From positions 62,001 through 126,000 of the IMG/VR virus record IMGVR_UViG_3300047546_003518: a DNA stretch of 64,000 nucleotides. One strand, given 5' to 3'. This document shows positions 23,976-31,406 of the stretch, piece by piece. Below the pieces are notes generated by a model. It saw nothing but the letters and a program-made list of their open reading frames with translations, ran no database searches and had not been told where the DNA came from. The DNA comes from a virus. Made by a program: the position numbers and the translations under genes. Position 1 is the first letter of the stretch. Each line of letters opens with the position of its first letter.

Positions 23976-24863
23976 ATGGATAATCAAAACCCACTCAAAA
24001 AGCCCTTGCCTCCGGCTAACCCGCTGAGCCAGTTTTATCGCAGGCCCGGCAACTTTATTGAGCTACCAAGTGGTGGGCGTTTTTATAAGAATCCGCCCAA
24101 GCTGTCTGAAACCAACGAATTGGCAGTTTATCCAATGACTGCCAAAGACGAAATGGTTCTTAAAAACCCAGATTCTTTGCTCAACGGCGAAGCACTCAAG
24201 CATGTGTTGGCCAGCGTAGCACCAGATATCAAGGACGTGAATGAAATTCCGGCACCAGACATTGATGCCATTTTAGTTTCCATGCGTATGGCCAGCTATG
24301 GTGACGACATGGAATTGGATGTGTCACACAGATGCAATGCCAGCGAAGGCAAGTCACAGAGAATCACTGTGAGTCTTGGCGGAGTTTTGTCCACTCTCAA
24401 ACCAATCAGCAGTGAAGTTGGCAATGTTACACTGAGTTCTGGTATTAGGGTTGAACTCAAACCCTATACACTGGATGCTCAAAGTCGTTTGCTGAGACAA
24501 CAATTTGTTACCATGCGCCAGTTGCAAGCTCTGGAATCAAAGGAAAACTCCACAGTGGATCAAAAAGCCGAAGTAGCCAACAAAGGTTACGCAGCTCTAG
24601 TTGATCTTAGTCAAGAAACTCTAGCACAGAGCATTATGTCTGTAACACTACCCGATGGCACACAGGTAACAAATTACGCACACATCTACGACTGGGTTAA
24701 AAATCTAGACCGCGCCAGCAACGAGCGCCTAGACCAAGAACTTAAAAAGTTTGGAACCTTTGGTATTACTCGAGAAGTCACAGTCAAGTGTGATTACTGC
24801 GGTGAAGAATACAAGTCAGATATGCTGTTTGATCCTACAAGTTTTTTCGCCGTAGGCTCTTGA
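23976..24863 (+). CDS. 26: Baseplate hub subunit gp26-like
   Basis: A 295-residue protein with the T4 baseplate (gp26) family signature: FIELPSGGRFYKNPPKLSETNELAVYPMTAKDEMVLKNPDSLLNG near the start. A C-terminal Cys pair follows (VKCDYCGEEYKSDMLFDPTSFF), typical of this family and probably zinc binding. Another Cys (HRCNASEGK) sits near residue 120. gp26 helps assemble the central hub under the tail tube. The gene has AAGGAT upstream of the ATG and a late box at 23921. Its stop overlaps the next start (TGATG). Confidence 0.88.
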   Translation: MDNQNPLKKPLPPANPLSQFYRRPGNFIELPSGGRFYKNPPKLSETNELAVYPMTAKDEMVLKNPDSLLNGEALKHVLASVAPDIKDVNEIPAPDIDAILVSMRMASYGDDMELDVSHRCNASEGKSQRITVSLGGVLSTLKPISSEVGNVTLSSGIRVELKPYTLDAQSRLLRQQFVTMRQLQALESKENSTVDQKAEVANKGYAALVDLSQETLAQSIMSVTLPDGTQVTNYAHIYDWVKNLDRASNERLDQELKKFGTFGITREVTVKCDYCGEEYKSDMLFDPTSFFAVGS

Positions 24864-25087
24864 TGCTTGGAACCGATGGAACAAAAATCCGTCGATTTGT
24901 TGACAGCATAGAAACCGAGGCAAGAGCCTTAATCAAAGAAGTTTCAACTCTCAGCGTGTGGGGCAGTATCAGCATCAATGAGATTTGGGCCATGAGTTAT
25001 CTCGAAAGACAGGTACTCAGCGAAACCATAAAAGAAAAAACCGAAGCATACTATGGCAAGAAGGGTTTCGCCAGATCTCGATTCTAA
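24863..25087 (+). CDS. Small baseplate-hub assembly protein (gp51 position)
   Basis: A 74-residue helical protein (STLSVWGSISINEIWAMSYLERQVLSETIKEKTEAYYGKK) that starts at the ATG overlapping the gp26 stop; a TTG one codon earlier is less likely. Short proteins with a 'xxIxxxEIWxMSxxER' core directly after gp26 are annotated as gp51, the hub assembly catalyst, in cyanophages. T4 gp51 is much longer, about 250 residues. It is probably a chaperone present in few copies. The call rests on position and a short pattern. Confidence 0.5.
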   Translation: MLGTDGTKIRRFVDSIETEARALIKEVSTLSVWGSISINEIWAMSYLERQVLSETIKEKTEAYYGKKGFARSRF

Positions 25088-25104: not shown

Positions 25105-25123
25105 AGGGCGATTTCATCGCCCT
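25105..25123 (+). terminator. Terminator-like hairpin after the gp26 unit
   Basis: AGGGCGAT and ATCGCCCT form eight perfect pairs with a TTC loop, 17 bases past the stop of the gp51-position gene. It is followed by TGAATTT rather than a pure T run, so termination may be partial. Read-through would then transcribe the structured region downstream. Confidence 0.6.
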
Positions 25124-25260
25124 TGAATTTCGTATCGCTTCGCTCTACTCATTCAGGTTTTATTGATTTAGAGTGATTAACTTAGAAACAATTTAGATTT
25201 GTTTAATAGTGAATCATTTGATTAACATTATGATTACTTGACTTAGATTTACCAGTCACA
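25124..25260. other. AT-rich non-coding spacer
   Basis: No plausible gene or Shine-Dalgarno is found here. The stretch is distinctly richer in A and T than the hairpin-dense sequence that follows. Partial promoter-like hexamers occur (TTGATT at 25218, TATGAT at 25230), but no pair has good spacing. It is the natural place for a promoter of the RNA candidate. Confidence 0.5.
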
Positions 25261-25680
25261 CTTAGCCGTTTTACCGGCTAAGAAAAACATTTTGATCTTG
25301 ACTCAGACCCCCATGTCACATTGGATTAAGCAACTGTTTCCAGCTAGGGCGGTTATGCTGTACCCTTTTACGCTTGTCTTGTTATAACGCATATTACGAA
25401 AGCAATCCAATCTGCTTGCGTAATATTGTAGGTTGTAATAGTTCACCAGAGCCTACTCATTTTGGTCATCGTATACTTGTGCCAATTCGTTTCATACCGT
25501 GAATTGCGTCCTGTCAAGGATAGTGGCAGTCAAGTCCCTGCTACCGCGTCAGGTGTTCCGTCCCCTGTGCAACCCTAGTGCCAGGTTTTATGGGTGTCTG
25601 TTAACCAGCCGACACAGGCTTATCGGTAGTGATAAGAAGCCTTTTGTAGTTTGCGTTTTACGCAGCTGGGCCGGGGTGAG
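25261..25680 (+). ncRNA. Candidate large structured non-coding RNA
   Basis: About 420 bases without a credible gene, packed with hairpins. Positions of paired arms: 25261-25268/25275-25282 (8 perfect); 25391-25404/25413-25426 (13 of 14); 25428-25434/25450-25456 (7 with one U-G); 25483-25488/25501-25506 (6); 25523-25529/25538-25544 (7 with one G-U); 25594-25598/25611-25615 (5); 25616-25624/25631-25642 (9 with a two-base bulge); 25652-25656/25660-25664 (5, TTT loop). A long-range helix, 25339-25345 with 25664-25670, could close a ~330-base domain. The wobble pairs are wobbles only on the + strand, so a rightward transcript is favoured. It lies between two convergent operons and has higher GC than the spacer before it. 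I do not recognise a group I intron core, RNase P, tmRNA or tRNA. Large phage RNAs such as GOLLD or ROOL are worth testing. The 67-residue frame across it looks like chance. Confidence 0.5.
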
Positions 25681-26109
25681 TTATAATTTGCCTAGGATGT
25701 GAGAGCCGTGAACTCTAACTTGGATATGACCGTTATAATAGTCTAGTGATTCTAGTACTTTTCTGTCGAATTGTTCTTTTGCTTCTAGGTAGCTACAAGC
25801 GGATTTGCTTTTGCAAAAATGTAGAATTTCTCTGATAAAGTTGTCTTTGCCTAAGAGTTCTACATCTTTGCTTAGTTCAGGTGATGAGCCATAATATTCT
25901 TGCCAGTCGCTGTCAATTTTTGTTCGTATGCGTTTTTTCTTTTTGATACCATTTTTTTGTTTAACGACCCGATAAGTTGTCTTACTAAACTTAGCCAACT
26001 TTTTCCCAATGTACTTACGATTGTTTGTGATATTTGTTATCAAATACACAAATCCTACGCAATCTTCTGGTAGGGTGTTAACAACAGACTCTTGGTACAG
26101 CCATGTCAT
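25681..26109 (-). CDS. GIY-YIG endonuclease, free-standing
   Basis: A 142-residue protein with a GIY-YIG-type nuclease fold. VYL (21-23) takes the GIY position, followed by ITNITNNRKYIGKK with YIG at 33-35. A basic KKKKRIRTKIDSDWQEYYGSS segment and an ELLGKDNFIREIL...EAKEQFD block follow, as in phage homing-type nucleases. Such enzymes cut DNA site-specifically and often spread their own gene. No intron or split gene is seen here, so it would be free-standing. It starts at the ATG overlapping the previous stop (TAATG) and is the last gene of the early-type operon. It abuts the structured RNA candidate, which it faces convergently. Confidence 0.75.
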   Translation of the reverse strand: MTWLYQESVVNTLPEDCVGFVYLITNITNNRKYIGKKLAKFSKTTYRVVKQKNGIKKKKRIRTKIDSDWQEYYGSSPELSKDVELLGKDNFIREILHFCKSKSACSYLEAKEQFDRKVLESLDYYNGHIQVRVHGSHILGKL

Positions 26110-26294
26110 TACTTGGCCGCAAGAGCTTCTTTCTCCGCAGTGATCTCCTTGCGGCGTTCCTTGATGGCCTTGCTCATTTCCTGTAGTGCTTTACGAGCAC
26201 GAGCCGCACTGGCTTTTACGCCCTTGACAGCAAACTTTTCGTTTTCGGCCTTGTAGGCTTCAAATTGCTCGAGTAATGTTTCATGATTTGACAT
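26109..26294 (-). CDS. Small basic histone H1-like (Hc1-type) protein
   Basis: A 61-residue helical protein with the Lys/Arg/Ala-rich core VKGVKASAARARKALQEMSKAIKERRKEI. This is the pattern of Hc1-like proteins found in many T4-like environmental phages and in bacteria. It could coat or bend DNA, or accompany replication and recombination. An excellent AAGGAG lies before the ATG. It is placed directly after gp46, in the recombination operon, and overlaps the GIY-YIG start. Family naming rests on the pattern alone. Confidence 0.6.
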   Translation of the reverse strand: MSNHETLLEQFEAYKAENEKFAVKGVKASAARARKALQEMSKAIKERRKEITAEKEALAAK

Positions 26295-30758: not shown

Positions 30759-31406
30759 ATGAAGATATCAGACCTTAGACCTAGAATAGTAGCGGTGTAC
30801 GCTGGACGCTTTCACCCCTTTCACATTGGACACACTGAAGTTTACCGCGAGCTAGCCGCAAAATTTGGTGCTGACAATACTTACATCGTTACCAGTGCCA
30901 AGGTTGAGCCGGAAAAGAGTCCTTTTGATTTTGCTGAAAAGATGTCAATGATGGTGGCCGCAGGCATTCCAGAATCACATATTGTACAAGAAATATCACC
31001 GTATTCGCCAGTGAATCTGATTGCCAAGCTTGGACTTGACCCTGACAAAGATATTTTGGTCTTTGGAGTTGGCAGCAAAGACATGGCTGAAGACCCAAGG
31101 TTTACATTCAAGCCGCTCAAGGATGGTACAGCATCATATCTTCAACCTTACAAAGAAAAGGGCCTGATGCCTCTTAACAGCGGCAAGAATGCAGACGGTA
31201 CTAGAGCTGGACATGGATATGTGATTCCAGTGAAAGATGTAAAATTTAAAGTTCTCGGCAAACAGGTCAACAGCGCCAGCGAAATTAGACAGATGTATAA
31301 AGATGCTAATGAAGAAGAGCGTTTAGCAATCTTAGCAGACCTTTACCCACAAAGCGGATCTGCTGTTCAACAACTCAAACGCATATTTGATGCAAGGCTA
31401 GCATAA
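30759..31406 (+). CDS. Nucleotidyltransferase (NMN/pantetheine adenylyltransferase-like)
   Basis: A 215-residue Rossmann-like nucleotidyltransferase. GRFHPFHIGH (residues 16-25) is the (T/H)xGH motif that binds the NTP phosphates. VNSASEIRQM near residue 170 takes the place of the C-terminal ISSTxxR motif. It would transfer AMP or CMP from an NTP to a phosphorylated substrate; NMN, making NAD+, is one option. Similar 'cytidylyltransferase' genes occur within the baseplate cluster of cyanophages. It is first in a + strand virion operon, with a late box placed so that the mRNA may be leaderless. Confidence 0.75.
   Translation: MKISDLRPRIVAVYAGRFHPFHIGHTEVYRELAAKFGADNTYIVTSAKVEPEKSPFDFAEKMSMMVAAGIPESHIVQEISPYSPVNLIAKLGLDPDKDILVFGVGSKDMAEDPRFTFKPLKDGTASYLQPYKEKGLMPLNSGKNADGTRAGHGYVIPVKDVKFKVLGKQVNSASEIRQMYKDANEEERLAILADLYPQSGSAVQQLKRIFDARLA

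Follow-up and report, generated by a model that had tools for sequence, protein, structure and literature searches.

Genes at the locus

The window analysed here, a 64-kb stretch of a 177.7-kb viral record, contains about 420 bases without a credible gene between two convergent operons (25261-25680), as the preliminary description of this DNA had recognised. The surroundings are T4-like: the minus strand carries genes for a gp55-type late sigma factor, gp47 and gp46 (SbcD/SbcC-like), an Hc1-like protein and a SegE-type GIY-YIG protein, and a plus-strand operon converges on them from the other side (Table 1). The Hc1-like protein, encoded at 26109-26294 (-) between gp46 and segE, is a 61-aa histone H1-like protein (Pfam PF07432). 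Pfam assigns the segE product to the SegE GIY-YIG family, yet it is called 'NAD synthetase' in PHROG family 447 and in many phage records, apparently a propagated annotation error. ARAGORN finds no tRNA or tmRNA gene in the window.

Table 1. Features of the RNA locus in window coordinates; pairing is given for the alignment of 44 sequences
Feature	Position	Strand	Evidence and remarks
segE-like GIY-YIG endonuclease gene	25681-26109	-	Pfam PF19835, E 2e-32; directly upstream of the RNA
Whole RNA, ~530 nt	25634 (5′) to 25104 (3′)	-	Conservation across phage and bacterial relatives; ends inferred from conservation only
RF01718-covered part	25475-25620	-	cmscan, full model
Pseudoknot PK1	25541-25629 (25629-25624 with 25546-25541)	-	100% paired in 44 sequences; 3 doubly changed pairs
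Hairpin H1	25594-25615	-	100% paired; double changes at 5/5 pairs
Hairpin H2 (Rfam)	25565-25584	-	Supported by Rfam model; 47.7% of cells paired, poor between-group alignment; not claimed
Hairpin H3, loop forms PK1	25537-25553	-	100% paired; double changes at 3/4 pairs
Multiloop-closing helix M1 around H4 (25520-25509) and H5 (25505-25484)	25476-25534	-	92-98% paired; many double changes
Hairpin H6, GTAGG/CCTAC, beyond Rfam model	25428-25456	-	100% paired; 3 doubly changed pairs, 15-20 sequences each
Hairpin H7, sequence variable	25391-25426	-	Inverted repeat; seen in relatives by eye
Pseudoknot PK2	25352-25388 (25388-25384 with 25356-25352, AAAGG hairpin loop)	-	99.1% paired; 4 doubly changed pairs
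Helix H8	25328-25375 (25375-25372/25331-25328)	-	94% paired; double changes at 4/4 pairs
H8b, inside H8	25366-25363/25349-25346	-	93% paired
H9, inside H8	25345-25342/25335-25332	-	77% paired
Direct repeat R1 (GAGTCAAGA)	25296-25304	-	Matches R2 within a genome, varies between genomes
Hairpin H10, CTTAGCC..GGCTAAG, then TGTGACT	25261-25282	-	99.4% paired; in phages and bacteria
Direct repeat R2 (AAGTCAAGT)	25236-25244	-	Matches R1 within a genome, varies between genomes
Domain 4 stem, internal GA/GAA motif	25125-25154	-	Other classes and bacteria: form kept, paired sequence differs (by eye)
Last hairpin (AGGGCGATGAAATCGCCCT)	25105-25123	-	Hairpin here also in bacteria and in class A, C, D and E relatives
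Convergent operon: T4 baseplate-hub-like gene and 75-aa gene	23976-25087	+	Pfam PF12322; downstream neighbours conserved

A minus-strand RNA that begins with Polynucleobacter-1 RNA

A cmscan search of Rfam matches 25620-25475 on the minus strand to RF01718, the Polynucleobacter-1 RNA, at 85.9 bits (E 7.8e-17; cut-off 37) over model positions 1-141, that is, above the curated cut-off and over the full length, as family membership is judged. This is the sole Rfam match above cut-off in the whole window and the sole match at E up to 1 in the RNA region. GOLLD, ROOL, OLE, group I and II introns, RNase P and tmRNA have no Rfam match in the RNA region, where ARAGORN also reports nothing. The preliminary description could match the RNA to no common class. 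It is indeed none of GOLLD, ROOL, an intron, RNase P or tmRNA, but its 5′ domain belongs to RF01718, a family in Rfam since 2010 that a single open-access paper names.

Conservation continues well outside the Rfam model: upstream in a CTACYG strand, and downstream in H6, an AAAAGG hairpin, the CTTAGCC..GGCTAAG hairpin followed by TGTGACT, and a fourth domain composed of a GA-containing stem and the last hairpin. Judged by this conservation, RF01718 is only the 5′ domain, about the first quarter, of a conserved RNA of ~530 nt that extends ~370 nt past the described Polynucleobacter-1 motif. The last hairpin, which also lies 3′ of the plus-strand operon, is probably the 3′ end of the RNA. The extent first proposed was too short, since the RNA continues to ~25104, and the AT-rich stretch before 25261 that had been read as if it held a promoter is a spacer within the 3′ part.

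The aligned helices contain 123 G-U pairs and 53 A-C pairs when read on the minus strand, which fixes the strand; together with the strand of the Rfam match, this asymmetry rules out the plus-strand RNA originally proposed. A conserved open frame had been named among the outcomes that would speak against an RNA, and none is present: across 44 relatives, every frame averages 6-9 stops. For 25261-25680 the folding energy gives z-scores of -2.36 (plus strand) and -1.72 (minus strand), by themselves weak evidence; the support for a structured RNA is comparative.

Covariation and secondary structure

Helices were derived from covarying columns in 75 non-redundant sequences; their pairs were then counted in a second alignment, which comprised 44 diverse sequences from phages and bacteria. 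The resulting structure of 68 pairs, with two pseudoknots, has 91.3% of cells paired in the 44 sequences and both-side changes at 43 of its 68 pairs, figures that are favoured somewhat by overlap between the sequences used for derivation and for counting. Doubly changed cells number 495, against 154 in shuffled alignments (0 of 500 shuffles as high) and 47-78 when the structure is slid along the alignment; of these two controls the slid one is the safer, as shuffling takes no account of relatedness. PK1 joins the 5′ CTACYG strand to the loop of the hairpin at 25553-25537, an interaction absent from the Rfam model, and one PK1 pair occurs as U-A, C-G and G-C. Double changes arise in many lineages, for which explanations other than a conserved RNA structure would be hard to find. 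Taken together, these comparisons strongly support a large structured RNA at 25634-25104 on the minus strand.

The preliminary proposal of a large, structured phage RNA located where two operons converge thus survives in substance, while its strand, its length and the absence of any match do not. Compensatory changes in homologues of related phages, whose absence was to count against an RNA, are clearly present. Several of the stable hairpins it proposed are true helices (25261-25282, 25391-25426, 25484-25505 and 25428-25456). Its wobbles at 25433/25451 and 25525/25542 are not pairs in the conserved structure, and its long-range closing helix (25339-25345 with 25664-25670) is not conserved: 25342-25345 is part of H9, and 25664-25670 lies outside the RNA, in the variable spacer that precedes it.

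Direct repeats in the 3′ domain

In the 3′ domain R1 precedes a hairpin and R2 comes after it (25304-25236 in the window); ACTC stands before R1 and ATCT before R2. The repeated sequence differs by genome (GCGAAAG, GAGAAAG, GATAATG, GATGATG, GATAGAG, CATGAA and others), and class A phages have a looser form, with AGTCAAG present twice in the window. When the repeats were extracted by landmarks independent of their identity, 50 of 56 R1/R2 pairs were identical over six bases. Sixteen distinct R1/R2 combinations average 5.62 of six identical positions, compared with 3.56 for shuffled partners (0/5000); shared ancestry inflates these statistics, and the pattern nevertheless recurs in separate lineages. 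The combined R1/R2 signature occurs 91 times in the loci examined and 3 times in reversed sequence. A search of the RNA for a third element that pairs with R1 and R2 found no consistent partner.

Matching direct repeats close to GIY-YIG or recombinase genes are also what one would expect if R1-hairpin-R2 were a DNA site for a recombinase or nuclease (that of segE or of the bacterial islands described below), with the RNA fold secondary. We regard this as very improbable: the hundreds of compensatory changes and the one-strand excess of G-U pairs indicate selection on RNA pairing, and segE is not always present.

The repeats could likewise belong to an origin or priming RNA, comparable to ColE1 RNA II or the T4 R-loop origins, that lets islands use a helper's replication machinery. 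The RNA occurs once per contig, in the 177.7-kb record as in its relatives, and at a fixed place, and the islands encode a clamp-loader-like protein. The GC-skew minimum, however, lies near 90 kb, at the same place as the switch in gene strand, which explains it and leaves no independent origin signal; moreover, the structural constraint on the RNA far exceeds that of a primer. An origin function is on balance unlikely.

Distribution and modular classes among phages

A pattern built on the conserved core matched 58 viral contigs, a pattern for the 3′ part at least 119 stretches, many of them new, and a pattern for a third group gave at least 120 matches. With either the 3′ pattern or the R1/R2 signature taken to mark the RNA, an RNA of any class lies 260-1,360 nt 3′ of segE in 72 of the 73 relatives that have at least 1 kb of downstream sequence, compared with 0 of 75 in the upstream control. 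By these counts the RNA is a near-constant element in a group of uncultured aquatic T4-like phages. Distant blastn queries of 50,697 cultured-phage records returned no match to the RNA, and plasmids gave none either. The R1/R2 signature is absent near segE in the cultured phages Melnitz, C48C1, V45v66, RHph_I1_18, BUCT-ZZ01 and phiM12.

At least five types of 5′ domain stand on one common 3′ domain, and three of them have no Rfam match. The RF01718 domain is found in class A, to which the window belongs, and in class C (89.7 bits in L190, 84.2 bits in L220). Classes B (L083, L088, L099), D (L207, L234) and E (L192, L229) join other 5′ sequences, without an accepted Rfam match, to the same 3′ domain, with membership of D and E based on that domain, its R1/R2 signature and position. 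Matches of L216 to a miRNA family were weak, fell below that family's cut-off and were disregarded.

The gene immediately preceding the RNA is segE in 95 of 137 loci, on the same strand, and in class C the RNA begins a few nucleotides past the segE stop codon. This arrangement would suit a 3′ UTR element that acts in cis, to stabilise the gp46/gp47/segE mRNA or to regulate it, and has no separate life. However, the RNA is retained where another gene replaces segE as its neighbour (another conserved gene stands there in 18 of the 137 loci; L208 is one example), and several loci have an extra ORF in between (L208, L191, L197). Bacterial copies, moreover, occupy an intergenic region of their own and are divergent from the neighbouring DUF6641 gene, and we know of no 3′ UTR element of this size with two pseudoknots. 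We therefore consider a purely 3′ UTR role doubtful.

Copies in bacterial islands

Thirteen of 151 Polynucleobacter genomes carry the RNA above the RF01718 cut-off, some in two copies. The true copies among bacterial genome contigs lie in Polynucleobacter and in a few MAGs; when the wider family and class were sampled with a strict pattern, the matches were of the Polynucleobacter type only. The occurrence in Polynucleobacter genomes and viral contigs agrees with that expected of RF01718, in Burkholderiales and in freshwater or estuary samples. Pattern matches in L061, L066, L068, L070, L071, L076 and L078 fall in unrelated sequence and are due to chance. In one Polynucleobacter genome the two copies are ~18 kb apart. 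MAG contigs with the RNA (L063, L073 and L074) are labelled Nitrospira lenta, Syntrophobacter and Cryomorphaceae; because the L074 RNA is nearly identical to Polynucleobacter copies, at least that contig may be misbinned.

The bacterial copies lie in islands that run from tRNA-Phe through an integrase, cargo (a DNA methylase, an EVE-domain protein, a restriction system or a Fic protein), and a module of a clamp-loader-like AAA protein (phrog_168, E 1.1e-17) and a tyrosine recombinase, to the RNA and a divergent DUF6641 gene. Two islands have end repeats, of 45 nt and 43 nt, placed 10.8 and 10.1 kb apart; an integrase and a tRNA attachment site with end repeats, features by which satellites are recognised, are thus both present. 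The islands in L269, L270, L271 and L272, ~10 kb long and tRNA-integrated, contain two proteins of unknown function besides the AAA protein, DUF6641 and defence-like cargo.

These islands are possibly phage satellites. They share the RNA with phages and have TAAATA upstream of it; island proteins, by contrast, have no match among the proteins of the phage contig and the other phage loci examined, nor did tblastn of one island protein against cultured phages return any, so that 'satellite' is a hypothesis, for which the RNA speaks and, weakly, the promoter motif.

The T4 late promoter, TATAAATA (PMC1524935), has TAAATA as its core. TAAATA occurs 19-71 nt upstream of the RNA in 18 of 18 non-redundant bacterial copies, but only 2 of 57 phage copies have it in the 300 nt that precede the RNA; since it is common elsewhere in the AT-rich islands, its position there is suggestive only. 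Separately, at 10 of the 76 TAAATA sites of this phage, exactly 5 nt separate the hexamer from an ATG that begins an ORF of at least 60 aa, as in two plus-strand genes of the window whose starts are at 30759 and 36581, whereas permuted hexamers give at most 3 each. With the T4 late promoter at -13 to -6, such an ATG would fall on +1 or close to it, and some late mRNAs of this phage may therefore be leaderless.

Polynucleobacter-1, from Burkholderiales and fresh water, was first tabulated as a probable RNA with a probable cis-regulatory role (Weinberg et al. 2010, PMC2864571). The RNA might accordingly be a 5′ leader, as its provisional entry in Table 1 of that work has it ('cis-reg? y'), a call that was given when a motif lies upstream of genes and that forms no part of the Rfam model. 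Neither phage nor island copies have that position. In phages the genes that come after the RNA are convergent; island copies have next to them either a convergent gene or, several hundred nucleotides on, a recombinase, with no constant downstream gene; the RNA also runs far past the motif then described. A leader function is scarcely credible.

Comparison with known RNAs and a possible role

Phages of classes A and C resemble Polynucleobacter-1, as do the bacterial copies, in that they match RF01718. The Rfam model, however, covers ~141 of ~530 nt, without PK1, PK2, H6-H10, R1/R2 or domain 4, and the RNA is here a core element of T4-like phages that has three more classes of 5′ domain outside the model. 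We found no description of the long RNA, its phage home, the other 5′ classes or R1/R2 in the open-access literature.

GOLLD also combines a constant 3′ with a variable 5′ region, and large phage RNAs can form RNA cages (PMC12286853). Like GOLLD and ROOL, the RNA described here is large, pseudoknotted, carried by phages and integrated elements, and without a known function; unlike them, it has a length of ~530 nt, is unrelated to either in sequence and lacks the tRNA-gene vicinity that serves to recognise them. The lytic phage ICP1 produces an ncRNA of ~800 nt, and such an RNA can be the most abundant transcript; the PLE satellite of ICP1 has an abundant ncRNA that is not described as homologous to that of ICP1 (PMC7567579). 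In contrast, phage and island RNAs are homologous here, and the likeness to the ICP1 and PLE RNAs is drawn from their published description. In general outline, our ~10-kb islands resemble the tRNA-integrated PICMI and tycheposon satellites (PMC10803314) in having an integrase, a replication-like module and defence-like cargo; they differ in that their proteins are unrelated to the phage proteins compared.

The RNA probably has a real job in the phage life cycle, and we lean modestly towards a free-standing, putatively trans-acting ornate RNA of ~530 nt that serves the lytic cycle of a T4-like phage. It would probably form the end of the gp55/gp47/gp46/Hc1/segE operon transcript, or else be made from an operon-internal promoter, and the transcript would end at the last hairpin, ahead of the convergent baseplate operon. 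By analogy with GOLLD and ROOL, it might then act in trans as an ornate RNA or an RNA-protein particle, the constant 3′ domain performing the common work and the exchangeable 5′ domain setting the partner or host. The presence of this RNA in Polynucleobacter islands is plausibly explained if the islands are satellites living on such phages. Its separate existence, action in trans, lytic role and satellite link are what we infer. A binding partner for the RNA was not found, and no complementarity of at least 14 nt exists between the RNA and the remainder of the contig.

A bolder reading, less likely than not, is that these RNAs form a new superfamily of ~0.5-kb ornate RNAs, with 5′ domains exchanged on one 3′ domain, which would be a core component of a large group of uncultured T4-like phages. 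Chromosomal satellites would share the RNA to exploit their helper, and the matched, genome-specific R1 and R2 would be addresses through which RNA, phage and satellite recognise a common partner.

With this analysis, an isolated 141-nt Rfam motif with a probable cis-regulatory label becomes the 5′ part of a phage RNA that is large, modular and strongly supported by covariation. Polynucleobacter-1 gains a phage home and a link to integrated bacterial islands, and the R1/R2 repeats offer a concrete clue to mechanism. The role of large phage RNAs is made testable here, in a setting where a phage and a possible satellite meet in a freshwater host genus that can be cultivated.
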